The notes under the pieces are model-generated. The model saw only the letters and a list, made by a program, of their open reading frames with translations, was not told the DNA's origin and did no database searches. DNA of 64,000 nt from an uncultured Desulfosoma sp. (GTDB lineage: Bacteria > Desulfobacterota > Syntrophobacteria > Syntrophobacterales > DSM-9756): assembly GCA_937960435.1 (NCBI GenBank), contig CALGPN010000025.1, positions 1 to 64,000 on the forward strand. Reading direction: 5' to 3'. Within the stretch, counting starts at the first letter, position 1. Every line of letters begins with the position of its first letter. Below, piece by piece: positions 45,033-61,884 of this stretch. Made by a program: the position numbers and the translations under genes.

Positions 45033-45071
45033 AATTTTCCCCTGAGGGGCTAATATGCCGAAGGACTGAGC

Positions 45072-45096: not shown

Positions 45097-45200
45097 AGGA
45101 CGAAAAGGCGGGCTTAAGGCTCCACCGGGCGATCGGTTCTTTCGAGGAAACCCTCACAGGCCGGGCGGGCCGGGACCGTGGCTTCAGGGAGAAAGAAACG

Positions 45201-48200
45201 ATGAAAATACTTCGGCTTCGATTCAAAAACGTGAACTCTCTGCGAGGGGAATGGGACATTCGCTTTGATGCGCCGCCGCTTTCCGACACGGGCTTGTTCG
45301 CCATCACCGGACCCAACGGCTCAGGCAAATCTTCCATTCTCGATGCCGTCACTCTCGGCCTCTACGGTGAAACCGTCCGCCTGCGCAACCCGGAAAATGA
45401 CATCACCACGTGGCTCGAAGACGAATCCTACGCCGAGGTGACCTTCCGCGTCGGCGAGGGCGTGTACTGCAGTCGATGGTGGGCCCGAAAAGGCCCCGAA
45501 GGCCTCATGGGCCCTGAAATGTCCCTCTCCTTGGTCAACGGCGGGGAGAGCATCCTGGAAGACCGCATCACCCGCGTGCGCACTCGTCTGAGTGAACTTA
45601 CGGGCCTAGATTTCAAAAGGTTTTGCCGCTCCGTCCTTCTCGCTCAAGGCCAATTCGCCGCTTTCCTCAACGCCTTGGAAAACGAACGGGCTGAGATCCT
45701 GGAAAAAATTATCGGGGCCGAGGTGACTCAAGAGATCCAGGAAGACCTCAAGAAACGCACGGCCGCGGCCCAGGAACGCTTGCTTCAGCTCAAGGAGCTT
45801 GCATCAGGCTTTCCCGCGGTCGACCGGGAACGGCTGCAGGAATTGGAGCACGAGCGCGATGAGGTGCGCGCCCAATGGGACGAAACTCTGCGGCAGATCG
45901 CCGAGGTGGAAGCGGAAAGGGAGCGGCTTCAGGTTCTGAAACAACGAGAGGATGACCTCCACGCGGCCCAAGAAGCCCTTTCGGAAGCTGAAGCCCGGGA
46001 GGCGTCGGTGCGCCGGGAGATCGAGAAGCTGGAGAAAATTCTGGCGGTTCGCCATTTGGCCGATGAGCTCCGGCATCTTCAAGAGGAGGAAGAAAACCGA
46101 AACGCCCTTGGGTTACGGCTGGACGCCCTCCGCCGGGAAAAAACCCAGGAGCAGGAGCGCCTCCAAACCGCGCGCGAACAGCTCACGGAGACAATCGAGG
46201 CCTTGGAAACGGCGCAGCGCCAATTGCAGGAAAAAGAAGAGGTCCTGCACGACGCCACACTCAGGGACGAAACCATTGAAGAGTGCTACCGTCGCCTTCA
46301 AGACGCCCTTTCGCGTTCGATGGAACGGGATCGAGCTCGACGCGACGGACAGAACCGCCTCGAGCAGCTGAAGACGCAGCTTTCCCAGGCGATTTCGCAG
46401 GCCGGCGCGCTGCAGGAACGGCTCACTCAGGCCTCAGCCGATCCGGGGTTGGAACGAGACCTGCCGGCTCTCGAAGACCTGATCCGCCGTCTCGGCGAAT
46501 GTCGAACCCGCGAAGACGTCTTGAACGCGCAACTGCCCGAGGCTCAACAACTCCTGGAAAAGGCGAACGCTGCTTTGGAACGGGCCGTAGCGCTCGAAAA
46601 GCGCGTCCAGGCCAAAGCCGGCCAAGCCGTGCTCAAAAAAGAAGCCTTGGAGCAGGCACTCAAAGCACGCCTCGGGGAAGGAACACGGGAGTCCCTCAAA
46701 GCTCGCCTCAAAGAGCGCAAGAGAGCCCTTCGGGGTTATGAGAAACTCTTGCCCATCGCCCGACGCTTCCACTCCCAGGGACTCGCTTTCGATATCCCTG
46801 CGGAACGGGAGCGTGTCTCGGCCCTTCAAAAGTCCCTTCAGGCATCGTTGGAAGAGGCCTTGGCCGAGCTCAAGAACTTTGAAAGCGAGCTGCTGTGGCG
46901 GGAAAGCTTTCAGCGGGTGAGCCCCGAACGGGAAAGGCTCCGGGAAGGAAAACCCTGCCCGCTGTGCGGATCCACGACACATCCCTACGTGAGCCAAGGT
47001 CTGCCCGACCTCGAAGCGCTCTACAAGCCCGTCGATGCGCTCCAGGACCGCATCCGATCCCTCGAGGCCGAACTGGCCGACCTCAATGACAAGGCCGCCG
47101 AGTTGGACGCGCAAGCCGAAGCCAAGGCGCGGATGCTCCAGGAATGGGATAACCTGTGCCGTCGTGCGGGGCTCAGTGTCGCCATGACGGATCCTCAAAC
47201 GATCGCCGACGCCATCCGATCCGAAAAAACGGCGATCCGGGAGGGAAAATCGGCGCTGCGTTCCACGCGTTTCACCAAATGGCGGCTTGCATGGTCGGAC
47301 ATGGTGCTTCGGCGGACGCTCGGGAAATTCGCCAAATTGGAACAGAAACGCCACTTCGCGCAGGAACAGTTCGACGCCCAAAAAAAAGCCTTCCAAGATT
47401 TGGAGGCCGATATCCGTCGTCTGAGGGAGGAAACGGAGGCGCTCAGCGCGGATCTTCGAACGCTCCTTGCCCCTTATCATGAACAAGTCCCGGAAAAAGG
47501 GGCCGAAAGGCGGCTTCTGGAACGGCTGTGGATGCGGCGGGACGCGGTCCGTCGGTGGCTGGGCGAACACAAAGAGCTTTACGAAACGATCCGGTCGCTG
47601 GAAACCGAGATCCAATCCTTTTCTCCCGAACTGGAACGACTGGAGAAAGAAGCCGAAGCGGCGGCCTCCGAAGCCGAGGCCGTCCAGGCCGAACTTGCGG
47701 CTTTAAAAGCCGAGCGCGAATCCCTCTACCCGGGGCTCGACCCCGTGGCGGAACGGCGCTCTTTGGAGGAAACCATCCATGCTTTGACGCAACGCCGTGA
47801 AGAACTCGTTCAGGAGATCGAGGCGCTGACTCGATCCCTGGCGGATCGGGACGAAGAACTTCGCGATGTGGAAGATGCTTTGGAAACGGCGCAAGCGGCC
47901 TTTGAGGCGACCCGCGCGCAGCTGGAACCCCGGATAAGAGACGCGGGGGTGGATTCTTTCGAAACGGCTTTCCTCGTCTTCCACGCCCTGGAAGAGGAAC
48001 CCATTGTGCGGCGGCACGCGGCGGAAGCGGCCGAAGCTCTTGCCGATGCCCGATCCCGCCTTGAGGCCGCCACGCGCGCGGTGCAACAAGCCGAGAAAAC
48101 GACGGCTTCCGACGCGTCCTTTGAGGCCCTTGAGCGCCGCCTGGGCGAACTGCACGAGCAACGGGAGAATCTTCGCCACGACTTGGAAGCCCTGGAACGG

Positions 48201-48782
48201 CAGTTGGTCGAAATCCGTCGGTCTCAACAAGAACGTCGGGAGCTGCTGCGGGCGATCGAGGACCAAGAACGGGTTTGCGCAGAGATGGCTTCGGAGGAGA
48301 GAGCTTTTCGAGAAGAACAGAGCGCGGAGGCTCGAGAAAAGTTTCGACGGCACCTCCTGGAGCGCCTCATCGCCCAGGCCAACACTCACCTAGAACTGCT
48401 AAGCGGCCGCTACAGGCTTCGGACCGTGGCCGACGACGGTTTCGGTCTCGTGGTGGAAGACCTCCTGCAGCACAGGAACCAACGACCTTTGCGCACTCTT
48501 TCGGGTGGGGAAACTTTTGTGGTCAGTTTGAGCATGGCTCTGGGGCTTTCTGACCTGGCGGCGCATCACCGAAGGATCGAATCCCTCTTCTTGGACGAAG
48601 GATTCGGCGTCCTGGACGAGGAGATGCTTTACCGGGTGATGACGGCACTGCGCAGGCTGCAGGCCAACGGGAAGACGGTGGGCGTCATCTCTCACGTGAA
48701 ACGCCTGGCCGAGGAGATCCAGACCCAGATCCGTGTGGAGCGCGAACCCGGGGGTATGTCGCGAATCACCGTGGTGCCGTGA
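45201..48782 (+). CDS. sbcC: SbcC-like SMC-family ATPase
   Basis: A 1193-residue protein of the SbcC/Rad50 type. The N-terminal ATPase half has ITGPNGSGKSSILDAVTLGL (Walker A at 37-44) and LLAQGQFAAFL; long coiled coils (about 190-560 and 650-1050) flank the zinc-hook motif GKPCPLCGSTTHPY (about residue 585). The C-terminal half has the signature TLSGGETFVVSLSMALGLSD and Walker B ESLFLDEGFGVLD. SbcC with the SbcD nuclease opens hairpins and blocked DNA ends. No sbcD is adjacent; the gene instead follows recCBD after 168 bases. Confidence 0.93.
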   Translation: MKILRLRFKNVNSLRGEWDIRFDAPPLSDTGLFAITGPNGSGKSSILDAVTLGLYGETVRLRNPENDITTWLEDESYAEVTFRVGEGVYCSRWWARKGPEGLMGPEMSLSLVNGGESILEDRITRVRTRLSELTGLDFKRFCRSVLLAQGQFAAFLNALENERAEILEKIIGAEVTQEIQEDLKKRTAAAQERLLQLKELASGFPAVDRERLQELEHERDEVRAQWDETLRQIAEVEAERERLQVLKQREDDLHAAQEALSEAEAREASVRREIEKLEKILAVRHLADELRHLQEEEENRNALGLRLDALRREKTQEQERLQTAREQLTETIEALETAQRQLQEKEEVLHDATLRDETIEECYRRLQDALSRSMERDRARRDGQNRLEQLKTQLSQAISQAGALQERLTQASADPGLERDLPALEDLIRRLGECRTREDVLNAQLPEAQQLLEKANAALERAVALEKRVQAKAGQAVLKKEALEQALKARLGEGTRESLKARLKERKRALRGYEKLLPIARRFHSQGLAFDIPAERERVSALQKSLQASLEEALAELKNFESELLWRESFQRVSPERERLREGKPCPLCGSTTHPYVSQGLPDLEALYKPVDALQDRIRSLEAELADLNDKAAELDAQAEAKARMLQEWDNLCRRAGLSVAMTDPQTIADAIRSEKTAIREGKSALRSTRFTKWRLAWSDMVLRRTLGKFAKLEQKRHFAQEQFDAQKKAFQDLEADIRRLREETEALSADLRTLLAPYHEQVPEKGAERRLLERLWMRRDAVRRWLGEHKELYETIRSLETEIQSFSPELERLEKEAEAAASEAEAVQAELAALKAERESLYPGLDPVAERRSLEETIHALTQRREELVQEIEALTRSLADRDEELRDVEDALETAQAAFEATRAQLEPRIRDAGVDSFETAFLVFHALEEEPIVRRHAAEAAEALADARSRLEAATRAVQQAEKTTASDASFEALERRLGELHEQRENLRHDLEALERQLVEIRRSQQERRELLRAIEDQERVCAEMASEERAFREEQSAEAREKFRRHLLERLIAQANTHLELLSGRYRLRTVADDGFGLVVEDLLQHRNQRPLRTLSGGETFVVSLSMALGLSDLAAHHRRIESLFLDEGFGVLDEEMLYRVMTALRRLQANGKTVGVISHVKRLAEEIQTQIRVEREPGGMSRITVVP

Positions 48783-48951
48783 CATCGTCACGGCGGGTGG
48801 GGCACTCTTGGATGCGACGCAATTTCTCTTCGAGCTCGGCGGTGGTTCGAAAAACCCACGTGCTAGGGTCGCAAAAACAGTAAACGGCCAAATCGCAGTC
48901 GGCGCAGGGCACGTGGGCGTCTTTGGGAGCGGGTTGAGGAGCCGATGTCAT
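48766..48951 (-). CDS. Small Cys-rich protein
   Basis: A 61-residue protein with CADC, then CFC and a late Cys (IQECPTRR), likely a zinc site. PSTWVFRTTAELEEKLRR follows. It reminds me of a small deltaproteobacterial family but I cannot name it. It starts four bases after the HNH gene stop without a visible ribosome site, so coupling is assumed, and it overlaps the sbcC 3' end by 17 bases on the opposite strand. Confidence 0.55.
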   Translation of the reverse strand: MTSAPQPAPKDAHVPCADCDLAVYCFCDPSTWVFRTTAELEEKLRRIQECPTRRDDVTAPR

Positions 48952-48955
48952 GGCG

Positions 48956-49288
48956 TCAACTATCCGTTGATCGAGAAGTCGTTTCCGCGCATCGCTTCAG
49001 ATAATCCGCCCATTCCACGGGCAGAAGATATTTCTTCTTGGAATTGCAGTCCTTGCAACACGGCACCACATTGCCCTTGGTGCTGCGTCCGCCGCGCACC
49101 AAGGGGACCACATGGTCCATGGTGAGCTCCGCGGGCGGCACCGTTTTACCGCAGTAGTGGCAGCGGCCTTTGGCCAGTTGCCGCTGCCACCACTGGGTTT
49201 TGCGAAGCGCCCGAGCTTTTTCCTTTTCGCGGCGGATCTCTTCGGGCGAAACCTCCACGATAAAACCCAAAGTCCCGCCGTCGTTCAT
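48956..49288 (-). CDS. HNH endonuclease
   Basis: A 110-residue HNH nuclease. The zinc cysteines CHYCGK and CCKDCNSKKK frame the catalytic LTMDHVVPLVRGGRSTKGNVV, where DHVVP corresponds to the HNH His and GN to the Asn. The N-terminal region is basic and helical. Such stand-alone HNH proteins may be housekeeping nicking enzymes. It starts almost at the stop of the upstream chalcone-isomerase-like gene. Confidence 0.9.
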   Translation of the reverse strand: MNDGGTLGFIVEVSPEEIRREKEKARALRKTQWWQRQLAKGRCHYCGKTVPPAELTMDHVVPLVRGGRSTKGNVVPCCKDCNSKKKYLLPVEWADYLKRCAETTSRSTDS

Positions 49289-49289
49289 T

Positions 49290-49886
49290 TTACGGTTCTC
49301 CCGTGGGGGAAGATCCTAGCATGCCTTTTTTCAGAACGTCCGACGCAGGCTTTTCACCCAAGAAAATCCCCCACAAGGCCTTCATGAAGTCGGCGCCCGG
49401 GACGATGCCTTTCTCTTGCCCCTTGATGACCACGTGGGTGCCCACGCCCGGCTCATAAAGCAGCCGCACTTCCTCCCCGCTCTTGATGGGTTCCGTGAAG
49501 TAGCCCACAAAGGTGTCCATGCGCGCTTTCAACCCAGGATCCGGATTGGGGGCGGTCTTTTCGAACCCTTCCCTCCATGTTTCCACAAGCTTGGCGGCTT
49601 CGACTTCTTTGTAGACAAAATGCATGACGATGCCCTTGGCTTTATCCTGATCGATGAGGGCCTGGGCATTGGAGGATTTTTCCGTGACGTAGAGCGCCCC
49701 GTAATAGACGTCCACCACGAGTTTCCGACGGATCCCGAAGCCATTTAAAATGCAGCGCGTTTGTCCTATGGTGATTTCACTTGGAAATTTCGGCGGATCG
49801 GCGGCTCCGGCCGGAAACGCCCACAAAGCCGCCAGCAAAAGCACGATCATGCCCTGAAAATTCTTAACCCTCCGCAAATACTTCAT
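49290..49886 (-). CDS. Exported chalcone isomerase-like protein
   Basis: A 198-residue protein with a signal peptide (IVLLLAALWAFPAGAA, cleavage near residue 29). The mature part has the chalcone-isomerase-like fold pattern: CILNGFGIRRKLVVDVYYGALYV, IVMHFVYKEVEAAKLVETW, and FMKALWGIFLGEKPASDVLKKGML at the end. Bacterial members are periplasmic and thought to bind lipids or fatty acids rather than flavonoids. GGAGGG precedes the ATG. Confidence 0.9.
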   Translation of the reverse strand: MKYLRRVKNFQGMIVLLLAALWAFPAGAADPPKFPSEITIGQTRCILNGFGIRRKLVVDVYYGALYVTEKSSNAQALIDQDKAKGIVMHFVYKEVEAAKLVETWREGFEKTAPNPDPGLKARMDTFVGYFTEPIKSGEEVRLLYEPGVGTHVVIKGQEKGIVPGADFMKALWGIFLGEKPASDVLKKGMLGSSPTGEP

Positions 49887-50014
49887 TCAATGACCCTCCG
49901 TGTCCCCAACGAGTTTCATCTAAAGCCGCCCCATCGGCTCCTTCCCCCCTCTAGGCCCTTTTCCCGCCCCATGGCCTTCACGAGACGCGGAAGGGGGCTT
50001 TCTCATCCCGCCTG

Positions 50015-51472
50015 CTAGTTTTGGGGCACTTGCAGCACCACATAGAACGTCCGCTCACCCCGCTTGACCAGGAGCAAAAGGCTTTTCTTCTTTTCGGCGC
50101 TCTTCATGGCCTGGTTGTAGTCTCTCACATTCTGAATCTTCTTGCGGTTCACTTCTTTGATGAGGTCTCCGGGTTGGAGGCGCGCGGCGGCGGCCGGGCT
50201 ATCGGGCTGGACTTCCGTTACGACGACGCCGCGTTCGGACACGTCCCAGCCGAACCGTTCGGCCAGTTCCTTGGTGACGTTTTGGACCGAAAGGCCCCAC
50301 ACATTTTCCGTCGTCTCCTCAGGCTGAGCTGCGGCCGATTCTTCGTCGGGCATGGTGCCCAGGTTGACGGTCACGACTTTCTTGGACCCCTCCCGAAGAA
50401 GCCCCAGCTTCACCTCGGAATTGGGCGGGGTCGCCGCCACCTTTCGGGAAAGTTCGTGGGCGTCTCGAACCTCTTCCCCGTTAAGCTCCAAAATGATGTC
50501 ACCCTGTTCGATTCCGGCCTTTTCGGCGGGGCTATCTTTGAGCACGTCGGAAACAAGAACGCCTTTCGCCTCCTTGAGGTTGAAGGATTCGGCGATCTCA
50601 GGGGTGACATCTTGAATCATGATGCCAAGCCAGCCGCGGATGACCTTGCCCGTGCGCAGTTGGGGCAACAGGTCCTTGGCCACGTTGATGGGAATGGCGA
50701 AGCCGATGCCCTGGCCTCGCGCCACGATGGCCGTATTGATCCCCACCACCTGGCCGCTCATATTGAAAAGAGGCCAGCCGGAATTGCCCGGGTTGATGGC
50801 GGCATCGGTCTGCAGGAAATCGTCATAGGGCCCGGCGCCGATGATCCGACCTTTGGCGCTGATGATCCCCACGGTCACCGTATGGCCCAGGCCGAAGGGG
50901 TTGCCCACGGCCATGACCCAGTCGCCGACGCGCAGCCCGGCCGAATCCCCCAGCACGGCGGGCTTGGGAAAGTTCTTGTCCGCTTCCGCTTTAATGAGGG
51001 CCAAATCGGTCTTGGGGTCGCGTCCCACGACTTTGGCGGCGTATTCTTTGCCGTTTTGCAGCTTGATTTTGATTTCCGTCGCCTTTTCCACCACGTGATT
51101 GTTGGTCAAAATGAGGCCCGAGGCATCGATGACCACTCCCGACCCCAAGGAATTGGTCTTCATGGATCCTTTGGGGATATCCCCGAAAAAGCGTTTGAAG
51201 AACTCATCGCCAAAAAATTCGCGGAACGGCGAATCCGGCTCCATGAAGGGTTGCAAGGGGTGGCCCTTGATGACCTGAGTCGTGGCGATGTTGACCACCG
51301 AATCCTTGACCTTGTCCGCCAGGTCGGCGAAAGACGGCGGAGCGTCGCCTCCGAAAGGACCCGACGCTCCGAAGGACGGGCCGGGAAACGCCCCTGTACC
51401 GACCATGAAAACCAGCATTACCACTCCCGCAATCCATGGAAAGCAATGTCCGCGGTTTGCTCGCTCGAACAT
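50015..51472 (-). CDS. Periplasmic HtrA/Do serine protease (DegQ-like)
   Basis: A 485-residue quality-control protease. After a signal segment (about 12-36) come a trypsin-like domain with His in LTNNHVVEKA, Asp in PKTDLALIKAE and Ser in INPGNSGWPLFN, then two PDZ domains (about 285-370 and 395-480; GVLVSDVLKDSPAEKAGIEQGD, GVVVTEVQPDSPAAAARLQPGD). The usual GNSGGPL is GNSGWPL here. It refolds or degrades damaged envelope proteins. It is divergent from the gene at 51609. Confidence 0.94.
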   Translation of the reverse strand: MFERANRGHCFPWIAGVVMLVFMVGTGAFPGPSFGASGPFGGDAPPSFADLADKVKDSVVNIATTQVIKGHPLQPFMEPDSPFREFFGDEFFKRFFGDIPKGSMKTNSLGSGVVIDASGLILTNNHVVEKATEIKIKLQNGKEYAAKVVGRDPKTDLALIKAEADKNFPKPAVLGDSAGLRVGDWVMAVGNPFGLGHTVTVGIISAKGRIIGAGPYDDFLQTDAAINPGNSGWPLFNMSGQVVGINTAIVARGQGIGFAIPINVAKDLLPQLRTGKVIRGWLGIMIQDVTPEIAESFNLKEAKGVLVSDVLKDSPAEKAGIEQGDIILELNGEEVRDAHELSRKVAATPPNSEVKLGLLREGSKKVVTVNLGTMPDEESAAAQPEETTENVWGLSVQNVTKELAERFGWDVSERGVVVTEVQPDSPAAAARLQPGDLIKEVNRKKIQNVRDYNQAMKSAEKKKSLLLLVKRGERTFYVVLQVPQN

Positions 51473-51608
51473 GCTGTGCGCTCCTTTCCCGAGAGCTCGA
51501 TAAAAGATGCCCCAATCTTTTCAGCCTTTGGAAAAATGTGCTATACACCATAAACGAAGTCGGCGAAAAATCAAGAACGAGCCAAAATAAGGAGGTCGCA
51601 TACCCCCA

Positions 51609-51938
51609 ATGGCATCGATGACGTTGGTCGAGGCATGTCGACTCAGTGTGAGGATTCTCCAAAGGAACCCCGAACTGGCCGCCATTTACCGAAACGCCGT
51701 GCGTCGATACGGGGAGGGAGAACTCCTTTGCGCCTTGATGGACCTCGTCGCCCAGGCCTATGAGGAGGGGAAACTGGAGGAGGAAGTCTTCAAGAATCCG
51801 CAGAGCTTATTGAGCTTTTGCTGCGGGGCGTGGATTCAGTTCCTTCTTGTGGAAGTGGCGGGCATGAAAAAAGCGGACCTTCATGCCGTGGCTCGAAAAA
51901 TTTTCAAGGAAACCCACAGCAACCGATCGCTGCACTGA
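51609..51938 (+). CDS. Small uncharacterised helical protein
   Basis: A 109-residue protein predicted helical, with EACRLSVRILQRNPELAAIYR, a central LLCALMDLVAQAYEEG and FCCGAWIQFLLVEVAGMKKAD near the end. No family recognised; there is no signal peptide. AAGGAGG lies 13 bases before ATG 51609; ATG 51618 is an alternative. It is convergent with the RSH gene, whose 3' end is one base away, and divergent from the HtrA gene. Confidence 0.65.
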   Translation: MASMTLVEACRLSVRILQRNPELAAIYRNAVRRYGEGELLCALMDLVAQAYEEGKLEEEVFKNPQSLLSFCCGAWIQFLLVEVAGMKKADLHAVARKIFKETHSNRSLH

Positions 51939-51939
51939 A

Positions 51940-54063
51940 TCATTCCCCAAGATCTACGGCGGCGTTGAGCGCCCCGTATTTTTCCACCACGACGAGGCCG
52001 GGAGGAAAGCATCGAAAGAGCCCGCGGGCCTCGTCGAAGCTATTCAAGATCACCTGAAAAGACGCCCATTGGGGAACGTCCTTCCGAAACTGCCCTTCCA
52101 GAGCGCGCACTTCGATCCTCGACGGGATGGTTCCCAAAAGAGGCAACAAAGGCTGGTTTTCCGGTGTGAAAACCTTGAGCCACATGGCGATGGGGCTGGG
52201 CCAGGGTGTGTCTTCCGCCCACAACACATCCAAAAGCTTGTGCGGCGGCAGCCCATGCCGTTGCGTCACATCACTGCACCGAGGCCGATGGAAGGTGATC
52301 CCGCGCTCACTCAGGGTGGCCAGGAGATGGCTTTCCCCGGGGTACGGGTGACAGCATCCGGCGAATTTATGGACGGCGGGATCCAATTCGCCCACCGTGA
52401 GCACGTAACGTTCGTGAGGTTCCTCCTCGGGAGGCCGGATCCTGCCCCTGGGCACGGGCTTTCTTGGCACGTCCTGCAGATAATAGAGAAAAGCGTGGGG
52501 AGAAAGAAGATCCTGCCCGATGAGGATAAAAAGGTCTTCCAAAGACTTCACATTGAGCACTTCCAGGATGAGCGGCACCTCTTCCCTTTCCAGGGCTTCT
52601 TGAGAAAACCCGTGATGCGCCAATTCCTGGAGCAGCATGTGGCGGCCGATCTCTAAGGCGCAGTTTCGCCGACGCCGGGCGATTTCCCGGGCGATGGCGT
52701 TGCGGGCCTTTGGGGTCATGCACAGGCGTTCCAAGTCGGGATCGAAAGGCACGGGTGTGTCGGCCTTGAGCACCCGGACCGTGTCGCCGTCTTTGAGCTG
52801 ATAAGTGGGGGTCACCCGCCGACCGCCGACCACGGCACCCATGCAGTGGTTGCCGAGATCCGAGTGGATCTTGAAGGCAAAGTCCAAGACGATGCTCCCG
52901 ATGGGAAACGTATGGGCATCCCCATGGGGGGTGTAGACGGTGACCTCTTCGGCTTCCGAAAGCTGGATGAGGGTGCGGCGTTGCGGGGGCGGCCCGCCGT
53001 ATTCCCCGACGCTGCGCAGGAATTCGCTGACTTCCCTGAGATAGGCGTCGGTGATCCTTTCGGGATTGTTCCACTGGCTGAGCACGCCATGGGTGGCCCA
53101 CGCGTCCATGGCGGCCGTGCGCACCTTGACCAGATAATTTTCCCCCTTGTAGTGGATCCGAGTATGCAAGCTCATGTAGCCGTTGTTTTTCGGGTTGGCG
53201 ATGAAATCCCGAAGGCTTCGCGGGACCGGCGCCAGCGTGGAATTGACCACACCCAGAGCGCAATAGCACGCGTCCGTGTCGTTTGCGGGAAGGACCACGG
53301 TGAAGTCTACCCGGTTTTCGGCGTTGTTCAACCGAAGCGTCCCTTTGGCCGCATCGTAGTAAGTGCCGAGCCCCTTGACCCGGCTGCGGATGACGACCTC
53401 CATGCCCCTTCGGGCGAAAGCCTCCTTGAGTCTTTCGGTGATCTCGGAAACGTTGGGATGGGCGTAGAGGCCGCGCAGGGCGTTGAGGATTTTTTTGCTT
53501 TTCTTGGGGTAGAGGTAGGAAAGGGCCAGGTGGTAAAGTTCTCGTTTCAGGGGAAAGATATTGAGCTTTGCCGCCAGCGGGGCGTAGATCTCCACGGTTT
53601 CTTGGGCGATCCGCTGTTGCTTGGGTTTGGGCAGGTAGTGAAGCGTTCGCAGGTTATGAAGCCGATCCGCCAGCTTGACGAGAAGCACGCCCAGGCGTTG
53701 GCTTGCCGTCTGAAGAATTTTGCTGTGAGTGAGATCCTTGAGAACGGCCCGGTCCAGGTGCAGCCGGGTCATCTTGGTGCAGCCGTCCACCAAGTCCGCC
53801 ACCGTTGTTCCGAAAGCCTGTTCAATGGCCTCGTAGTCGACGGACGGGACATCCTCGATGACGTCGTGAAGAATGGCCGCCGCCAGGATTTCCGGGTCGC
53901 GGATTCCCATCTCCTTGGCTAAAATGTAGGCCACGGCGCACGGGTGACTGATGTAGGGCGACCCCGATTTGCGGACCTGTCCGGCATGAAGCCTTACGGC
54001 GAAATCCAGCGCCCGATAAAAAAGATCGTTTCCTTCTTTTTCGGGCGGAAGAAGTTCTTCCAT
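51940..54063 (-). CDS. RSH-type (p)ppGpp hydrolase with degenerate synthetase domain
   Basis: A 707-residue RelA/SpoT homologue. The hydrolase HD domain is intact: SGSPYISHPCAVA, LHDVIEDVP (His66-Asp67) and VKLADRLHNLRTL. In the synthetase domain Asp253 remains (RVDFTVVL), but the catalytic Glu of the EIQIRT motif is Leu311 (YLVKVRTAAM) and the Lys/Arg-rich substrate strand is altered (RVKGLGTYYDAAK). A TGS domain (EEVTVYTPHGDAHTFPIGS) and a C-terminal zinc-finger-like part (FAGCCHPYPGE) follow. It is probably a ppGpp hydrolase. ATG 54063 fits the family start; a TTG at 54126 is possible, and the open frame further upstream is REP sequence. Confidence 0.9.
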   Translation of the reverse strand: MEELLPPEKEGNDLFYRALDFAVRLHAGQVRKSGSPYISHPCAVAYILAKEMGIRDPEILAAAILHDVIEDVPSVDYEAIEQAFGTTVADLVDGCTKMTRLHLDRAVLKDLTHSKILQTASQRLGVLLVKLADRLHNLRTLHYLPKPKQQRIAQETVEIYAPLAAKLNIFPLKRELYHLALSYLYPKKSKKILNALRGLYAHPNVSEITERLKEAFARRGMEVVIRSRVKGLGTYYDAAKGTLRLNNAENRVDFTVVLPANDTDACYCALGVVNSTLAPVPRSLRDFIANPKNNGYMSLHTRIHYKGENYLVKVRTAAMDAWATHGVLSQWNNPERITDAYLREVSEFLRSVGEYGGPPPQRRTLIQLSEAEEVTVYTPHGDAHTFPIGSIVLDFAFKIHSDLGNHCMGAVVGGRRVTPTYQLKDGDTVRVLKADTPVPFDPDLERLCMTPKARNAIAREIARRRRNCALEIGRHMLLQELAHHGFSQEALEREEVPLILEVLNVKSLEDLFILIGQDLLSPHAFLYYLQDVPRKPVPRGRIRPPEEEPHERYVLTVGELDPAVHKFAGCCHPYPGESHLLATLSERGITFHRPRCSDVTQRHGLPPHKLLDVLWAEDTPWPSPIAMWLKVFTPENQPLLPLLGTIPSRIEVRALEGQFRKDVPQWASFQVILNSFDEARGLFRCFPPGLVVVEKYGALNAAVDLGE

Positions 54064-54293
54064 CCGCAGACGGTACACGCCTACGTCGAAATGTCCGGGA
54101 TCTTCTGTAAAGATCTGCTGATACAAAGCTTTTCCCCTGTGCGCAAAGTGAGCGCCCGGCCTATGCGGGACGCTGCCTCGAGGATTGTATCGGATTTTCC
54201 CCAACGCGCCCAGTTCTAAATCTCGGTGTCCTTTCCCGGACGATATTTCAATGCCGGCCCACCCCTTCCGGCTTCGCCGCAGGCGTATTTGCC

Positions 54294-54324
54294 GTAGGTT
54301 GGGGTGAGCGCAGCGAACCCCAAC
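54294..54324 (+). repeat. REP family 1, copy upstream of RSH gene
   Basis: Same 31-base element as the recC copies, here intergenic and about 230 bases before the chosen RSH start codon. An open frame of the RSH gene extends through it, which would falsely lengthen the protein. Confidence 0.9.
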
Positions 54325-55082
54325 GCCAACACCCGGCCCCGCACCAATCCCTTTCAATGGAAGACATTTGCCCCGACAACCTCCGAGCGGCCCCATGAGT
54401 TCGCCCCAACAGGCGAATGCTTTCAGCTCCTAAGGATTTGCGAAACTCGGACACCCCTCGGCAGTCTCAGGTGGCATTCAAGGCCCGAACCACCATGCAA
54501 GACCCAAAAAAATGACGTCGTGCTCCTTCGCCTCCGACATTTCATGACCGACCCGGACCTGGAACCGAGACAGGATAGTGAAACGAAGATGGAAATCTCA
54601 TTCCGAACCGCCGGATATTCTCCCGAAAATCGCGTAAATGCTACGAGACTTCGCCGAATGCTGATCGGAGCTCCATGTGGTTGAAAATTGCCTCTAGGCT
54701 AAGGGTTTCACCATCCCGTTGGCAACGCTTTAAAAAGTAGGTTTTGTTTATCGGGGATAAAATCGGAAAGCCGCCCCCGGCATTGGCTGCCGAACATCCG
54801 GATCCCCTGCCCTCCAAAACGAACGCTCGGCTGCACCCAACCCGCTTCGATTGAGAGATCGACTGAAAAGCCTCTTACCCGGAGGTCGCTTTTCACCTGG
54901 CGGACGCTCAGGCTCCGCTAACGAAATACAGATGCGGTCGGCAAAATAGAGGCGCCACCTTGGAGCACGGCCTCGTAAAAGTGCTTCGAGACGCCGGCGC
55001 CGCGCGATTCGCACTCTTTGGCTCAAGAGACGCCGTCCGAGCCCGTAGGTTCCCAATTGCCCGAGACCACCCCTTCAAAGCC

Positions 55083-55352
55083 TTAGGGCATGGCCGGGTT
55101 TCTTCGTCCATCCACAGCCACCGTGATGGTCTTCGACCCAGAGATGCGGGCCGCTCCGGAAACGAAATTCGGCTTTTCGGCAGCCGCGTTGATTATGGAA
55201 ACTTTTTGGGCGCCCTCTTTCTGGACCCACAGGATATCTTCCAAAGTCCCGGTGGCCCCGCAACCATCAGGGGAACTCGGATAGTGGACCCCCTTGACCA
55301 CACGGCCCTCCTTCCTGTCCTGAAAAGGGCAAATCAAAATCGCCCGTTCCAC
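55083..55352 (-). CDS. Weak candidate small protein
   Basis: An 89-residue frame, 57 bases downstream of the SIMPL gene on the same strand. Its middle and end (GATGTLEDILWVQKEGAQKV, ISGSKTITVAVDGRRNPAMP) look more protein-like than its surroundings, but the GTG start has no clear ribosome site and I know no family. It could be a gene remnant. Confidence 0.25.
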   Translation of the reverse strand: MERAILICPFQDRKEGRVVKGVHYPSSPDGCGATGTLEDILWVQKEGAQKVSIINAAAEKPNFVSGAARISGSKTITVAVDGRRNPAMP

Positions 55353-55409
55353 CGTCTGTGCCTCGCTTTTTTCTCGCCGGACGGCTCCACTGTTGAAAAT
55401 GCCGTAGGC

Positions 55410-56129
55410 CTAATCGGAGAGGTAGTATTGCACCGTGGAAACTACGCGGACCTTTTTGATGTGGGGCGTGTTGGGATCCCGGTCTTCGACGGTAAACAGT
55501 CCCTGGCCGGCCGTTTTGATCTTCCCGAGTTTGCTTTGAGAATCGGCGGCGAATTTTTCCGCCACAGCCCGCGCGTTTCGCGTGGCCTCCTCAATCATCT
55601 GGGGTTTCAAATCATTGAGTTTCGTGAAAAGGAACTGCACCCCGCTCCCAGGGTCTTCGCCGCCCAGAGCAATCCCCTTTTTGCCCAGTTCGCCCAAACG
55701 GCTTTGCACGGCCCGCACCAGGTCCACCTTCGTCGTGTAGACCGTCATGGTCTGCTGCGCTGTGTATCGAAGACTCACGTCCTGCTGGCCTCCGTAACGT
55801 CGAGCCATTTTATCCGTCACCACCGGCGCCGCCGGTGTGATTTCCGTCGGGGAAAATCCCGCCGCTTGAAGAAAAGCGAGAACCTCACGAGCGTTCCTTT
55901 CCATGGTTTCGTAAAGGGCGCTGAGATCGTTTCCCGCCGTGGTGAAAGTGACGGGCCAGATCGCAATGTCCGCAGGCACTTCGCGTTCCGAAAGTCCTTT
56001 GACGGTCACGGTCCGATCCAGGCCCTTCACCCGCATGAGGTAGCTTCCGAGGGTGACGGCCATGGCAAACATGGCGGCGAAAAACATCATGCCGAAAATG
56101 ACGGCGGCGCCCAATCGGTCATTACTCAT
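55410..56129 (-). CDS. SIMPL-domain protein, membrane-anchored
   Basis: A 239-residue protein with one N-terminal transmembrane segment (AAVIFGMMFFAAMFAMAVTL) followed by a SIMPL (BP26/OMP28-like, DUF541) domain: TVTVKGLSEREVPADIAIWPV near the start and ALVEAVRAKAEKFA-type helix here as RNARAVAEKFAADSQSKLGK, ending VVSTVQYYLSD. These envelope proteins form oligomeric rings of unknown function. ATG 56129 has GAGGAA upstream. Confidence 0.88.
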   Translation of the reverse strand: MSNDRLGAAVIFGMMFFAAMFAMAVTLGSYLMRVKGLDRTVTVKGLSEREVPADIAIWPVTFTTAGNDLSALYETMERNAREVLAFLQAAGFSPTEITPAAPVVTDKMARRYGGQQDVSLRYTAQQTMTVYTTKVDLVRAVQSRLGELGKKGIALGGEDPGSGVQFLFTKLNDLKPQMIEEATRNARAVAEKFAADSQSKLGKIKTAGQGLFTVEDRDPNTPHIKKVRVVSTVQYYLSD

Positions 56130-56289
56130 GGTCGATTCCTCTGCAGAAGAAAGCACTCATTATCTCAACCGGTTACCAAGGTCCATCGCGCATGTCAAGC
56201 TGCCATGTCGGCGGCGCCACGGGGGGAGCCCTGCGCGCGATCGGGGGAGATCTGTCGAGGAACTTCGCCGTGGGAAAAGCTTTTGGTCC

Positions 56290-56318
56290 TTGACTTGGCA
56301 GGGAGATTCCATTATTTT
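56290..56318 (+). promoter_or_regulatory. Promoter of the tRNA-Gln/Glu unit
   Basis: TTGACT at 56290-56295, a 17-base spacer and TATTTT at 56313-56318 end 12 bases before the first tRNA. A GC-rich stretch (CGCCGCTCG) follows the -10, as in stringently controlled stable-RNA promoters. Confidence 0.7.
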
Positions 56319-56330
56319 CACGCCGCTCGT

Positions 56331-56404
56331 TGGGGGATCGTCTAGCGGCAGGACGGCGGACTCTGGATCCGCTAGCCTAGGTTCGAATCCTAGTCCCCCA
56401 GCCA
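56331..56404 (+). tRNA. tRNA-Gln (anticodon CTG)
   Basis: A 74-nt cloverleaf with CCA encoded. Acceptor TGGGGGA/TCCCCCA, anticodon stem GCGGA/TCCGC with loop CTCTGGA giving anticodon CTG (reads CAG), T arm CTAGGTTCGAATCCTAG. It is transcribed with the tRNA-Glu seven bases on. Confidence 0.95.
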
Positions 56405-56411
56405 TTTTTTT

Positions 56412-56487
56412 GGTCCCATCGTCTAGTGGCCTAGGATACTGGCCTCTCACGCCAGAGACACGGGTTCGAATCCCGTTGGGACTACCA
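56412..56487 (+). tRNA. tRNA-Glu (anticodon CTC)
   Basis: A 76-nt cloverleaf with CCA encoded. Acceptor GGTCCCA/TGGGACT with a G-U first pair, anticodon stem CTGGC/GCCAG with loop CTCTCAC giving anticodon CTC (reads GAG), T arm CGGGTTCGAATCCCG. Confidence 0.95.
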
Positions 56488-56498
56488 AGATGGATGCA

Positions 56499-56532
56499 GG
56501 GGCTCGCGCTGAAAGTGAGCCCCTTCTTTTTT
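56499..56532 (+). terminator. Terminator of the tRNA unit
   Basis: A perfect 7-bp stem GGGGCTC/GAGCCCC around an 11-base loop is followed by TTC and six T. It starts 12 bases after tRNA-Glu. Confidence 0.88.
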
Positions 56533-56590
56533 CCCCACACCTTTCGGCCTTCTTGAAGGGTCGGCCCCGGATTCGCCAGTGGGAAAGCCC

Positions 56591-57742
56591 TTACGAGAGG
56601 ATATGAATTGCCTGCAGGCTCCGGTGCAGATCACGGGCGTGGACGGCGATGGTGCGGGACCCCAAAGCCTCTTCTTCTGGGTCGACCACGAGGTCGTCCG
56701 CCAGAAGATGCCCCACGGCCTCCCAGTCTGCGGCGCCGAAGGCCCGAAATGCCTCAAGAATCTCGCCGCAAGAGAGAACTTCATCGGCCGGCGCCCCATC
56801 GGCCCATCCTCTGAAAAAGCCGTCCACGACGGCGGGAAGCCACCGTTCGGTCGCCCAGACCAAGTCGCCCGATCCTTGTTCCCGATCCAGTCTCATTCGA
56901 AAAGTCAGGACGAAGAAAAAGGCGGCCAGAGCCGACAGGCGTTCGTGGTGTTGCGGGCCCGGTGCCACAAGCACCTCCAGGCCTCGGGCGGCAATGAGCC
57001 GCACCGCCACTGTTTGACCGTGGGGAGCCACAACGAAATCTCCCGCCGCATGGTGCCACGGGTAAATGTGGCGAAATTCGCGCCGATCCAGAGCCAGAGT
57101 CAGGATGTAGGCCGCCTGTTCCATGAGCTGAGATGCCTGCGCCGCGCTCAGGATAGCGCCCGAAGGCGAATCGTCCCAAACTTCCACCGATTCGGCATCA
57201 CTTCCAGGTCCTTTTTTGAGATGCCATTCGTAAAACCCATCGAACCACTGCGCCAGAAAAAAGCCAAAGGAGCCATGTCGTCCGGCACTGTCTTCCCAAA
57301 ACCCTTGACCTCGATAAAGCATCTTGGGCACGTAAGGTGCCGCCGCCGTTTTTGAAAGGCTTTGCAGCGTGTCCGATTCCCGCACCAAGGCTGCCTGGCG
57401 CTTGGGATGCACAGCGGAATTCATGGCCATGGAAAACCAGCGATCTCCGACACGCACCGTGACTTTCGCCACGTGATAAAGAGCGCCGTGTTTCACACTG
57501 TCGAGACACACTTCGTCGATTCGCTCCGGCGCAAAACGTTCCCCGGTAAGCGCCTCCAGGCTTCGACGGATGGGTTCGACAGCCCTTGCCCGCAAGGCTT
57601 GTACCAGAGCGCGGAAATAAGTGGCATAGGTTATCTTGGGAGCGTCTGTGGATAATCCCGTAGGAAGGACCCGGGTCAGGGCGTCGTCATAGGCGGGTTT
57701 GCCGTCAATGAGGGGGACAAAGGCCGGGACCGAACCCCTCAT
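56591..57742 (-). CDS. Kinase-fold-like uncharacterised protein
   Basis: A 383-residue protein with the outline of the aminoglycoside phosphotransferase/choline-kinase fold: HGALYHVAKVTVRVGDRWFS followed by a hydrophobic strand and RESDTLQSLSKTA, then FLAQWFDGFYEWHL. A central HHAAGDFVVAPHG stands where the catalytic loop H-x-D-x4-N would be, and the ATP lysine is not evident. It may be a pseudokinase or a variant enzyme. Its ATG overlaps by four bases (ATGA) the end of the frame that follows the TGA in the small upstream gene. Confidence 0.6.
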   Translation of the reverse strand: MRGSVPAFVPLIDGKPAYDDALTRVLPTGLSTDAPKITYATYFRALVQALRARAVEPIRRSLEALTGERFAPERIDEVCLDSVKHGALYHVAKVTVRVGDRWFSMAMNSAVHPKRQAALVRESDTLQSLSKTAAAPYVPKMLYRGQGFWEDSAGRHGSFGFFLAQWFDGFYEWHLKKGPGSDAESVEVWDDSPSGAILSAAQASQLMEQAAYILTLALDRREFRHIYPWHHAAGDFVVAPHGQTVAVRLIAARGLEVLVAPGPQHHERLSALAAFFFVLTFRMRLDREQGSGDLVWATERWLPAVVDGFFRGWADGAPADEVLSCGEILEAFRAFGAADWEAVGHLLADDLVVDPEEEALGSRTIAVHARDLHRSLQAIHILS

Positions 57743-58020
57743 GAAGACTCCTCCGGCGGAACCTTCTCATCTTCTCGACGGGTCTTGACAGCTGGACAGG
57801 GAGGTTTCTGAAAGGGAAACGCGCCGGTCTTTTCCGTGAGCACCCGTGTGGCATCCAGCCACCAGTCGGCGAAGCCGCACCCCAGTCAGTGGCGGGAACG
57901 GCTCAGGCACCCCTGCAGGGCTTCTTCCAACTCCTTGACCCGTTCCCGCAGGTGGTCGCGTTCCTTTTCGAGGGCCGCGATCCGATCTCTCAGGCCTCTC
58001 TCGTCATCCTGGGCGCTCAT
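57739..58020 (-). other. In-frame continuation past TGA: candidate selenoprotein frame
   Basis: The frame of the 44-codon gene continues after its TGA (57886-57888) for 48 more sense codons to a second TGA that overlaps the next ATG as ATGA. The added part reads GCGFADWWLDATRVLTEKTG and ends KVPPEESS. The TGA plus LGC gives a U-x-x-C motif. Short hairpins follow the TGA (CGGC/GCCG at 57867-57877; GTGGC/GCCAC at 57848-57862), neither a clear SECIS. A nonsense mutation or a second separate small gene are the alternatives. Confidence 0.35.
57886..58020 (-). CDS. Small coiled-coil protein (minimal reading, to first TGA)
   Basis: A 44-residue protein starting MSAQDDERGLRDRIAALEKE, with leucine heptads through KELEEALQGCL, then CLSRSRH before TGA. 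GAGGT eight bases upstream of the ATG supports a real start. Alone it would be a tiny coiled coil; the frame goes on beyond the stop (see the 57739-58020 entry). Confidence 0.55.
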   Translation of the reverse strand: MSAQDDERGLRDRIAALEKERDHLRERVKELEEALQGCLSRSRH

Positions 58021-58052
58021 GGGTCTACCTCAGCAAAAAGTCGAGCCCACCC

Positions 58053-58379
58053 CTAGGTGAGGCCGTGTTCGCGAAAGAGCCGTTCCAAGAAGCGAGCCTC
58101 TTTCCCTTTGTCCATGCAAGGATCGTCGCCGTTTCTTGAGACCTCCTGAACCTGGAAAACGCAATCCACCAAGATTTCGTAAGGCGTGACCGTCGTGTGG
58201 CTCCGAACGTAACCGTTGCCGTTGGGTTGGTAGACGTGAAGAAAAAGGCTTTTCTTTTTTTGAAGGGATTCTTGAAGAGCCGCCTCAAACGTGTTGCGAT
58301 CCATGTCCGTGTAGAGGCGGATGCAGCATCTGGTCCGTTTAAAAATGACGTAAAGCCGACTGAATACCGGAGATTCCAT
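58053..58379 (-). CDS. Small uncharacterised protein
   Basis: A 108-residue protein with RLYVIFKRTRCCIRLYTDMD, then KKKSLFLHVYQPNGNGYVRS and PYEILVDCVFQVQEVSRNGDD. Cysteines occur as CC and two singles. No family recognised, no signal peptide. ATG 58379 is chosen for the AGAGGA seven bases upstream. It lies 32 bases before the TGA-interrupted gene and may be cotranscribed with it. Confidence 0.6.
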   Translation of the reverse strand: MESPVFSRLYVIFKRTRCCIRLYTDMDRNTFEAALQESLQKKKSLFLHVYQPNGNGYVRSHTTVTPYEILVDCVFQVQEVSRNGDDPCMDKGKEARFLERLFREHGLT

Positions 58380-58449
58380 AAGGGCTTCCTCTGCATACCT
58401 GAATACCTCGCGACGCACCGGGATCCGGGAGCGAGGAAGCCCCTGGCTA

Positions 58450-59292
58450 TCATGATCTTTCCTTTTTCGCAACGGCGGATCGCTCTTTCAGCTGCTTCCA
58501 CACGGGACGATCCACGAAACTTCCGGAGACGTTTTCTTCCAGTTCCAGAAACAGCCGCCACGGCGCCGCGAAAGTAAAGAGGTCGTCACCCATGGTTTTG
58601 GCCACATTGAGACGCGCCGAAAGGTCTACCTGTCCGATGACCCCTCGTGGTCGCTCCCGGGCGGCTTCCCGATAGGCATAAATGCCGATGCTTTGGCAGC
58701 CCGCCGCAAAGGGAACGATCACGTTTTCGTTCCCGGGGCGTCCGTAGTTGGTTAAAACGACCAGGGCCGCCAATTGGTGCGGGGCGGCCCAAAAGACCAC
58801 CACCTGGGGCGGTGTCGTTGTCGGGTCGAGGGCCTTGAGGGGTTGAAAGACGACATAACGGGTCGGCACATCCATGATGGGCAAATCCTGGATAAACCTC
58901 TCCACAAGTGGGGGATCCTTGAGGTAGCCTTCACCGTCTCGAAACTCCTCCACGAACCCTCCACCGCCGGAAGCCTCCATCTGAGCGGTCACCGCGCGCC
59001 CTTGTTCCCAGTTCCGATTACCAGTGGAAAGGAAATAATGGAAGCAGGCCTCACCGCCCGGAAAGGCCGTGTATTGGTTGCCGAAGCCCAGCCCTACGCC
59101 GCCGCCCCAGCACCCGTAGGATTCCCTGTCGAAGGCGGCAGGCTTCCCGCGGGACGCCCCCGCAAGCATCCACATGACACAGCCCCATTTGCCGGGGCGG
59201 AAGACGGACGCCCCTTCGGGCTTTTTATCGGCCCACAGGACGGCGACAGGATCGTGCTGCAGCCCCAAAGCGTGGACAACGCGGCTCTCCAT
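58450..59292 (-). CDS. DUF169 family protein
   Basis: A 280-residue protein of the DUF169 family: LGLQHDPVAVLWADKKPEGA, WMLAGASRGKPAAFDRESYGCWGGGVGLGF, and PFAAGCQSIGIYAYREAARE followed by DLSARLNVAKTMGDDLFTFAAPW. The conserved Cys residues (CVMWM, CWGGG, GCQS) suggest a metal or cofactor site. The family is frequent in anaerobes and methanogens; its role is unknown. Confidence 0.85.
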   Translation of the reverse strand: MESRVVHALGLQHDPVAVLWADKKPEGASVFRPGKWGCVMWMLAGASRGKPAAFDRESYGCWGGGVGLGFGNQYTAFPGGEACFHYFLSTGNRNWEQGRAVTAQMEASGGGGFVEEFRDGEGYLKDPPLVERFIQDLPIMDVPTRYVVFQPLKALDPTTTPPQVVVFWAAPHQLAALVVLTNYGRPGNENVIVPFAAGCQSIGIYAYREAARERPRGVIGQVDLSARLNVAKTMGDDLFTFAAPWRLFLELEENVSGSFVDRPVWKQLKERSAVAKKERS

Positions 59293-59403
59293 CTTTGATC
59301 TCCTTGCGCTTTACACATGCCCCTTTCCTCGGCACAATGACCTTGAGGCGACGCCGAGGCCCCCGGCCTATTTTCCGACACATCCCGCGAGGCCCAAGAC
59401 GGC

Positions 59404-60045
59404 ATGAACGGCTACGACTCTTTTTCCACCCTCCTGCGCCATGAAATCCCCGGCCGGGACTTCGTCATCGAATGGCGGACCGGCCGCTCCGGCCTTGCGG
59501 TCATGGCCCCCCACGGGGGCGGGATCGAACCGGGCACATCCGAAACCGCCCGATCCATCGCGCGGGGGCTTCACACGTTTTATCACCTAGATGGGCGAAA
59601 AAGAAAACACAACGCCGCATTGCACATCACCAGCACCCTTTTCGACGAGCCCGCGGCCCAAGCCCTTGCGGCAGCCTCGTGGAAAATCATGACCCTCCAC
59701 GGCTGCACCGATGAGGACGCCGACGTGTTCCTCGGCGGCCTCGATACCGGCCTGCGGCGCCTGTGCGCCGAAGCCCTCAGTGAGGCGGGCTTTACCGTCG
59801 CCGCCCATCCCATTTTCCGAGGAACACAGCCTGAAAACTTGTGCAATCGAGGTCGCGCGGGCATGGGGGTGCAGCTGGAATTGTCCCTCAAACTTCGGCG
59901 GCGCCTTTTCCGCGGCATGGATCGCCTTGGGCGGCGCTTTCCCACCGCCGTTTTTCACAGCTTCACGGAGGCGATTCGTCGGGCGCTCGACCAAGAAACC
60001 CTTCGCGTGCCCCCGAAGCCGGATCTGAGAACGGATCCCCGATGA
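59404..60045 (+). CDS. Poly-gamma-glutamate hydrolase-like protein
   Basis: A 213-residue protein matching the phage-derived PGA hydrolase (DUF867) family. The zinc-site motif is MAPHGGGIEPGTSE; LHITSTLFDEP and VFLGGLDTGLRRLC follow, and GVQLELSLKLRRRLF near the end supplies the catalytic Glu-type region. The known enzyme cuts the capsule polymer poly-gamma-glutamate. Here it sits in a bacterial operon with a glycosyltransferase, overlapping it as ATGA, with no phage genes nearby. The substrate may differ. Confidence 0.8.
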   Translation: MNGYDSFSTLLRHEIPGRDFVIEWRTGRSGLAVMAPHGGGIEPGTSETARSIARGLHTFYHLDGRKRKHNAALHITSTLFDEPAAQALAAASWKIMTLHGCTDEDADVFLGGLDTGLRRLCAEALSEAGFTVAAHPIFRGTQPENLCNRGRAGMGVQLELSLKLRRRLFRGMDRLGRRFPTAVFHSFTEAIRRALDQETLRVPPKPDLRTDPR

Positions 60046-61166
60046 AGATTTTGCACTATTGCCAACATGTGCTTGGGATCGGGCATTTTTTGCGGAGCAT
60101 GGAAATCGCCTCGGCTTTTTGCGATCACGCCGTGTTTTTTGTGGAAGGCGGCGATCCTTTGCCCGGCTTCCGGGCGCCGGACCATGTGCGGCGCATCGCT
60201 CTGCCCCCTCTGCGCATGGATCCCCAGTTTCGAAGCTTGGAAGCGGCCGGAGGGGACATCCGAGAAGTGCAGCGGCGGCGCACGGCGATTCTCTTGGACC
60301 TCTTCGTCGCCGTTCGCCCGGATGTGCTGCTCATCGAACTTTTCCCCTTCGGCCGAAAACGCTTCCAGTTCGAACTCATCCCCCTGTTGGAAAAAAACGC
60401 CGCATCACCCCACCGGGCCCTCGTCGTGTGCAGCCTACGGGATATCCTGGTGGAAAAAGCCGACCCGGACGTTTACGAAGAAAAAGTGCTCTCCCTCGTC
60501 AACCGCTATTTCGACCTCATCTTGATCCACGCCGATCCGAACTGCGTCCGGCTGGACGAAACCTTTCGGCGCGTTCGGGATATCCGGCCTCCCGTGCATT
60601 ATACGGGCTACGTGACCCGAACTTTACCGGGTCCCCCGCCTGAAAGAGTCCCCGGCAGGATTGTGCTCAGCACCGGAGGCGGCCGAGTCGGAATCGATCT
60701 CATTGAAGCCGTGTTCCTCGCCTTTTCAAGGCTTTCGAACCCGGACATCCGCCTCCATGTCCATGAAGGCCCCTTTATGGAACCCCGGGACAAGGAGGTT
60801 CTTTCGGCTCGTGCTGCGGCCGATCCGCGCATTTCTTGGCATCCCTTTTCCCATGAATTTCTGAAAGAATTGGCGCAGGCGGAGCTGTCCGTAAGCATGG
60901 CAGGCTACAACACCTGCATGGACATTTTGGCTTCAGGAGTCAAAGCCCTCGTCTATCCCTTTCCGCAAAACCGGGAACAGGCGCTTCGGGCCGATCGGCT
61001 GGAAGCTCGAGGCACGCTCCATGTCCTTCGTTCGCTGGATCCCGGAATCGTTGCCGCCCGGATCTGTGAAGCCCTGTCGGCTCGGCGGCCGACGGCCGAG
61101 CCATTGCAGACCGACGGCGCCGGAGAGACTGTTCGGGCCATTGAAAACTTTCAAACGAGAGCTTAA
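60042..61166 (+). CDS. Glycosyltransferase, MurG-like (GT28-type) fold
   Basis: A 374-residue protein. The N-terminal loop HVLGIGHFLRSMEIASAF is typical of GT-B enzymes with a glycine-rich first loop; the C-terminal domain has VLSTGGGRVGIDLIE and the donor-site region SVSMAGYNTCMDILASGVKALVYPFPQNREQALRA. Closest in outline to predicted glycosyltransferases of the MJ1255/undecaprenyl-GlcNAc type. The acceptor is unknown. Followed after 56 bases by the ABC genes. Confidence 0.85.
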   Translation: MKILHYCQHVLGIGHFLRSMEIASAFCDHAVFFVEGGDPLPGFRAPDHVRRIALPPLRMDPQFRSLEAAGGDIREVQRRRTAILLDLFVAVRPDVLLIELFPFGRKRFQFELIPLLEKNAASPHRALVVCSLRDILVEKADPDVYEEKVLSLVNRYFDLILIHADPNCVRLDETFRRVRDIRPPVHYTGYVTRTLPGPPPERVPGRIVLSTGGGRVGIDLIEAVFLAFSRLSNPDIRLHVHEGPFMEPRDKEVLSARAAADPRISWHPFSHEFLKELAQAELSVSMAGYNTCMDILASGVKALVYPFPQNREQALRADRLEARGTLHVLRSLDPGIVAARICEALSARRPTAEPLQTDGAGETVRAIENFQTRA

Positions 61167-61879: not shown

Positions 61880-61884
61880 CTTTT

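Follow-up and report, generated by a model that had tools for sequence, protein, structure and literature searches.

A predicted hydrolase-only long RSH protein and its Rel partner with an altered hydrolase site in Desulfosoma and its relatives

The window analyzed here is a stretch of 64,000 nucleotides from an uncultured Desulfosoma sp. (contig CALGPN010000025.1, positions 1 to 64,000). Its minus strand encodes a long RSH protein, P0001, whose closest neighbours are listed in Table 1. The Pfam matches of P0001 above cut-offs were HD_4, RelA_SpoT, TGS and RelA_AH_RIS, with the HD, SYNTH and TGS domains in long-RSH order; the ACT_4 profile did not match. The RelA_SpoT match covered part of the profile only (positions 34-108 of 113) and scored a low 52 bits, compared with 141 bits over profile positions 1-111 in the other long RSH of the genome. 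The score with NCBIfam TIGR00691 (RelA/SpoT family protein) was 392 bits, which is below the curated cut-off of 499.

Table 1. Features of the P0001 locus and the partner Rel. Positions are those of the window, except for the partner Rel, which is encoded elsewhere on the same contig. Residue equivalences refer to RelSeq unless stated otherwise.
Feature	Position	Strand	Remarks
P0001, type I long RSH, hydrolase-only (RshD-like) as judged by residues	51940..54063	-	707 aa
P0001 HD hydrolase domain	53557..54012	-	PF13328, 127 bits; all nine checked residues present
P0001 pseudo-synthetase domain	53029..53505	-	approximately residues 187-345; Pfam RelA_SpoT match confined to 53065-53283
P0001 Asn250	53314..53316	-	aligned with catalytic Asp264
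P0001 Leu311	53131..53133	-	aligned with catalytic Glu323
P0001 TGS domain with His400	52765..52944	-	His400 aligned with E. coli RelA His432 (tRNA CCA-end contact)
P0001 zinc-finger region	52264..52368	-	C570, C571, H592, C596, R587 = E. coli RelA C612, C613, H634, C638, R629
109-aa ORF	51609..51938	+	convergent with the P0001 gene; no Pfam match; may not belong
DegP/HtrA-type protease	50015..51472	-	trypsin and PDZ domains, named from Pfam; downstream neighbour of the P0001 gene
Partner Rel (second long RSH)	142257-144131	-	synthetase residues intact, HD residues changed

Residues were numbered by reference to RelSeq (1vj7). A first reading of the DNA, made from the sequence only, had described the HD hydrolase motifs as complete. 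This held for all nine residues checked: R44, Y50, H53, H77, D78, E81, D82, D144 and N148 of RelSeq correspond to R31, Y37, H40, H66, D67, E70, D71, D133 and N137 of P0001. The synthetase site is a different matter. The sequence-only reading had placed Leu311 at the position of the synthetase glutamate and had noted differences at neighbouring substrate-binding positions, and the alignments agree, with E323 replaced by Leu311, Q325 by Lys313, K251 by Ala238, R269 by Thr255 and Y299 by Phe287; ATP/Mg positions are among those lost. Its further statement that the catalytic aspartate remains, as Asp253, is probably not correct. Both a multiple alignment and an hhalign comparison of profiles placed Asn250 at D264, with Asp253 three residues later, while pairwise phmmer placed Asp253 on or adjoining D264. 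RelSeq D264 is reported to lie in the alpha13/beta2 loop (PMC13299517), and in the AlphaFold model of P0001 a strand begins at residue 252. It is therefore likely that Asn250, and not Asp253, occupies the position of the catalytic aspartate. The variants D264G and E323Q are reported to abolish synthesis by RelSeq (PMC13299517, citing Hogg).

The AlphaFold model of P0001 had a mean pLDDT of 85.5 and a pTM of 0.70. Its N-terminal region superimposed on 1vj7_B (Z 29.0, 2.5 A, 300 residues aligned) and 7oiw_A (Z 30.5, 3.2 A, 312 residues aligned), and these matches to Rel structures suggest that the pseudo-synthetase has a synthetase-like fold. The N-terminal fold is thus predicted to be like that of the bifunctional Rel structures, but with the synthetase site destroyed. 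When Foldseek hits were ranked by E-value, the first rows were Acinetobacter baumannii SpoT (7qpr).

The genome of P0001 (3.0 Mb, 95% complete) encodes one other long RSH and one small HD protein; no small stand-alone synthetase was found in it at this completeness. In the other long RSH, a Rel, every checked synthetase residue is present, while the residues at E81 and N148 are both Asp. The sequence-only reading had proposed that a hydrolase-only SpoT-like enzyme works with a separate synthetase elsewhere, either a second RSH or a small alarmone synthetase to be sought in the genome. The residues support this proposal, and the search turned up the former kind of protein, with a complete synthetase site, but not the latter. 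The pairing of a putative hydrolase with a putative synthetase was thus borne out, although neither the loss of hydrolase residues in the partner nor the recurrence of the arrangement in the phylum had been foreseen. With an HD motif that reads as intact, the small HD_4 protein (213 aa, locus L005, positions 1423-2064 of contig C11 of the same genome, G000) is a candidate small alarmone hydrolase, and P0001 may not be the only enzyme with this activity in the genome.

Within the window's order, P0001-like proteins (called type I below) were present in every genome searched except G037 (38 of 39, the genome of P0001 included). In the same class they also occurred in the single genome of family f4 and in one of the three genomes of family f6, whose other two are 83% and 68% complete. 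None of the 12 genomes of family f5 had one. Named relatives of P0001 belong to Desulfacinum (order Syntrophobacterales, phylum Thermodesulfobacteriota). All 40 P0001-like proteins of the class have Leu and Lys in place of E323 and Q325, and their HD residues are intact except for Y50 in three. The 42 Rels of this class, which include two from genomes without a partner found (G037 and G043), all keep D264 and E323, and N148 is lost in all 41 that cover it. A family profile searched against 395 genomes of the phylum scored at least 674 bits in 31 genomes and at most 496 among the other matches listed. Of these 31 genomes, 15 come from other families (f20, f68, f80 and f104) and form a second type I group, in which the same split recurs in 15 of 15 genomes, with D78 of Rel replaced by Gly and N148 lost in every case.

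Across the 55 type I proteins examined, both synthetase carboxylates (D264 and E323) are lost, as are K251 and R269, while eight HD residues are fixed and Y50 is Phe or Asp in three proteins. The fixation of Leu and Lys at E323 and Q325 in 55 of 55 orthologues rules out a sequencing accident as the cause of their absence from P0001. The HD domain is the most conserved domain of type I, with dN/dS of 0.025-0.048 in three close pairs (dS 1.0-3.1). For the pseudo-synthetase domain, three genome pairs were compared; one was saturated, and the other two gave dN/dS values of 0.048 and 0.050 at dS 1.3-1.7. Between close relatives this domain looks to be under purifying selection. Mean identities in the HD and SYNTH domains were 0.71 and 0.53 in the window family, 0.53 and 0.68 in the matching Rels, and 0.64 and 0.57 in 42 other Rels; the window family and its matching Rels thus diverge as mirror images of each other. 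In one orthologue (L125, in G014) a charged stretch of about 21 residues is inserted into the pseudo-synthetase, ahead of the LVKIRT strand.

Two control samples were drawn from the phylum. The first consisted of 42 Rels, one per family, picked among those most similar to the window family. All 42 were intact, but this control favours intact HD sites, and one of its members (G384) has a partner of type II. The second control consisted of 60 genomes chosen by eye among those that scored lowest or were unmatched in the profile search of the 395 genomes; eight of the 60 had no Rel match at E <= 1e-40. It uncovered two further kinds of partner, types II and III, and thereby changed our conclusion. 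Type II was found in 8 of the 395 genomes; its open frames span 483-544 aa and have no zinc finger. Type III was found in 11, with open frames of 694-999 aa. With TIGR00691, one type II protein scored 322 bits, two type III proteins 318 and 292, and one type I protein of the second group 368. In all 74 partners (55 of type I, 8 of type II and 11 of type III), R44, H53, H77, D78, E81, D82, D144 and N148 are intact and both D264 and E323 are lost; Y50 is intact in 70. Type I proteins carry Leu in place of E323 and type II proteins Arg, while in type III the position is occupied by Arg, Ser, Thr or Asn. In one genome (G367, C1:2707743-2719114) the genes for the type II partner and Rel (L385, L391) lie about 8 kb apart, and they are also close together in G384.

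In order to relate the partner to the state of Rel, we tallied 185 Rel sequences from 184 genomes at seven core HD positions, which 181 sequences cover and four cover incompletely. At least one core position was changed in 69 of 72 Rels with a partner found and in 2 of 109 without, these counts not being independent of one another; D264 and E323 were intact in all 185. A genome was scored as having no partner found on the basis of profile searches that scored two to four candidates per genome or, outside the 395-genome sample, of a search with P0001. Two or more core changes were present in 67 of the 71 HD-changed Rels. The other four had a single change (N148D in G031 and G329, D82E in G225 and E81A in G312), which may or may not abolish activity, and we count them against a full split. 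The same applies to the intact Rels beside a type II partner in G350, G367 and G384, which are three of the eight type II genomes; in G350 the partner itself carries Y50C. Conversely, the two HD-changed Rels without a partner found are from G037 (97% complete, 9% contamination) and G248 (81% complete), and two genomes of the genus of G248 carry type III.

Left out of the tally were ten fragment loci (L307, L308, L311, L314, L318, L319, L320, L322, L323 and L324), odd third copies (in G016 and G027) and 16 named loci. A fragment in G089 that had seemed HD-damaged was rejected as such, its HD domain being intact in another frame. The third copy in G027 (L181, C1:438821-439816) is an RSH-like protein whose synthetase string is mostly intact but whose HD domain is degenerate, and that in G016 (L180, C206:2932-3828) is an RSH-like piece with both sites degenerate. 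G409 has two long RSHs (L221 and L237) with HD and synthetase residues intact in both.

Activities are read here from what was observed across the genomes examined: which residues are present, how well they are conserved and how they co-occur. On this basis P0001 would hydrolyze (p)ppGpp at its intact HD site and, with both catalytic carboxylates lost, would not synthesize it. Its former synthetase domain would be retained as a folded regulatory pseudo-domain, to which both conservation and the predicted fold point, and synthesis would be left to the second long RSH, a Rel with its hydrolase site altered in return. That the pair divides labour in the manner of RelA and SpoT seems to us very probable. 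There would be no full split, however, if the partner Rel still hydrolyzed ppGpp and its HD changes merely weakened it. Some observations fit such a residual activity: of the 40 window-class Rels covering the sites, all 40 have H77, 39 have H53 and 31 have D78, and there are also the four Rels with one core change and the three type II genomes with an intact Rel. We nevertheless consider it unlikely in view of the uniform loss of N148 in both groups of type I hosts, the Gly at D78 throughout the second group, and the presence of two or more changes among the nine HD positions in 53 of the 54 complete Rels from type I hosts and related genomes. Moreover, substitution of Y51, E82, D83 or N147 is reported to render Acinetobacter SpoT hydrolase-inactive (PMC9974481). 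We mapped these residues to Y50, E81, D82 and N148 of RelSeq, respectively.

The pseudo-synthetase could also have kept some transfer of pyrophosphate or nucleotide, catalyzed by Asp253 or a different acid and directed to another acceptor. Asp253 is present in at least 90% of 20 aligned type I sequences, Glu being frequent there in the second group, and several synthetase residues persist among the 55 type I proteins (K304, Y308 and H312 in all, R241 in 52, K243 in 53 and R327 in 54). The invariable substitution of E323 and Q325, the loss of K251 and R269 and the lack of any invariant acid near L311 in the type I alignment make such a reaction highly improbable. We give just as little credence to P0001 as a regulatory RSH without catalysis, with the small HD_4 protein of the same genome hydrolyzing instead, because its eight fixed HD residues and the strong conservation of the HD domain argue against it.

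The division of labour between P0001 and Rel, which we favour, also raises the question of its history, which we approached with quick trees of chosen rows. In an 88-row tree built without the HD domain, the HD state changes seven times, and at least five of these changes are forced by starred branches. A single clade of all HD-lost Rels was rejected (p-AU 2e-58), but one clade for the Rels of both type I groups was not rejected in two AU tests (p 0.391 and 0.163); the best trees favour a separate loss of HD in each of these groups. Independent-pair tests gave no significance, the pairs being too few. All three partner types fell on one side of a branch with SH-aLRT 86, and a single origin is neither demonstrated nor rejected. 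Both type I groups, the window family and the second one, shared one side of a branch with SH-aLRT 100. The nesting in one tree suggests transfer of type I between these groups, while another tree gives no resolution on this point. A branch with SH-aLRT 100 separated P0001 from E. coli SpoT in a quick tree with one SpoT. As to the order of events, it is likely that a hydrolase-only copy would appear or arrive first and that the HD site of the resident Rel would then decay. This order fits the type II lineage, in which Rel is still intact in three of eight genomes. The HD site is retained in two f102 genomes and in G350, and E81A is present in G312, a near-identical relative of G350; type II may thus show the decay of the Rel HD site in progress.

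The pseudo-synthetase of type I is not merely rotting, since K304, Y308 and H312 are kept throughout and the type I sequences aligned share four new, fixed residues (Tyr248, Arg297, Leu323 and Lys325). Other positions, such as N306, are relaxed. The TGS histidine is present in every one of the 55 type I proteins and the CCHC of the zinc finger in all 54 that cover it. In RelA, H432E is reported to abolish activation by deacylated tRNA (PMC7058999). E. coli SpoT also has the TGS histidine, so its presence alone proves nothing. Starved ribosomes or guanine nucleotides may still control hydrolysis by type I proteins. A more far-reaching scenario, possible but in our view doubtful, is that at least three partner types arose or spread, repeatedly letting the HD domain of the resident Rel decay, and that type I reads starved ribosomes (deacylated tRNA, via His400 and the zinc finger) and binds a guanine nucleotide in the pseudo-synthetase pocket. 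If this were true, amino-acid starvation and GDP/GTP would directly switch ppGpp breakdown in type I.

Among described systems, RshD resembles P0001 in being a second, divergent long RSH beside Rel in deltaproteobacteria. RshD is reported from four deltaproteobacteria, its supported pair being Syntrophobacter fumaroxidans and Desulfotalea psychrophila, with the Pelobacter and Magnetococcus members outside (Atkinson et al., 2011, PMC3153485). Both proteins are labelled there as competent at both sites, RshD[HS] and Rel[HS]; here the residues read [Hs] and [hS], which calls these labels into question for these bacteria. The same source notes a diverged HD domain in RshB of Bacteroidetes. Acinetobacter baumannii SpoT[Hs] (Moraxellaceae) likewise combines an active HD domain with a pseudo-SYNTH domain and has a synthetase-only RelA beside it. 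It differs in that its TGS histidine is replaced by Ser407 and its guanosine tyrosine by Asn304 (PMC9974481), whereas P0001 keeps His400 and Tyr296, and in that the partner of P0001 is a Rel of its own class and not a beta/gamma RelA. Plant RSH1 is likewise reported to be a hydrolase-only long RSH beside synthesizing proteins (RSH2/3 and CRSH), but it belongs to a chloroplast lineage and its loss of synthesis is put down to one Gly-to-Ser change (PMC5633626), while in P0001 both carboxylates and further positions are gone. The partner Rels resemble E. coli RelA in their intact synthetase and lost hydrolase residues; RelA, however, has lost H53, H77 and D78 too, whereas H53 and H77 are still there in most partner Rels.

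The titles and opening lines of abstracts returned by a literature search contained no report of such a split in this phylum, and in the bacterial literature covered a full RelA/SpoT split was described for Moraxellaceae only, plants having their own. A division of labour like that of RelA and SpoT, known from E. coli-type bacteria and from plants, appears by its residues to recur in another bacterial phylum, with several origins. Three hydrolase types and several separate losses in Rel make the order and cause of RSH subfunctionalization testable, not least in the near-identical G312 and G350, one of which has an intact Rel HD domain.

The neighbourhood of the type I gene was compared across 13 loci. 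A homologue of the 109-aa ORF lies beside the gene in seven, an ORF of 482-508 aa follows it in seven, and little else is shared. Scans for tRNAs and Rfam families over window positions 53500-57500 and 44000-62000 returned two tRNAs and nothing else, namely adjoining genes for tRNA-Gln (CTG) and tRNA-Glu (CTC) at 56331-56487 on the plus strand. An ORF of 1193 aa on the same strand (45201-48782), whose N-terminus resembles an ATPase and which contains long coiled coils, is presumably SbcC-like, as judged by eye.
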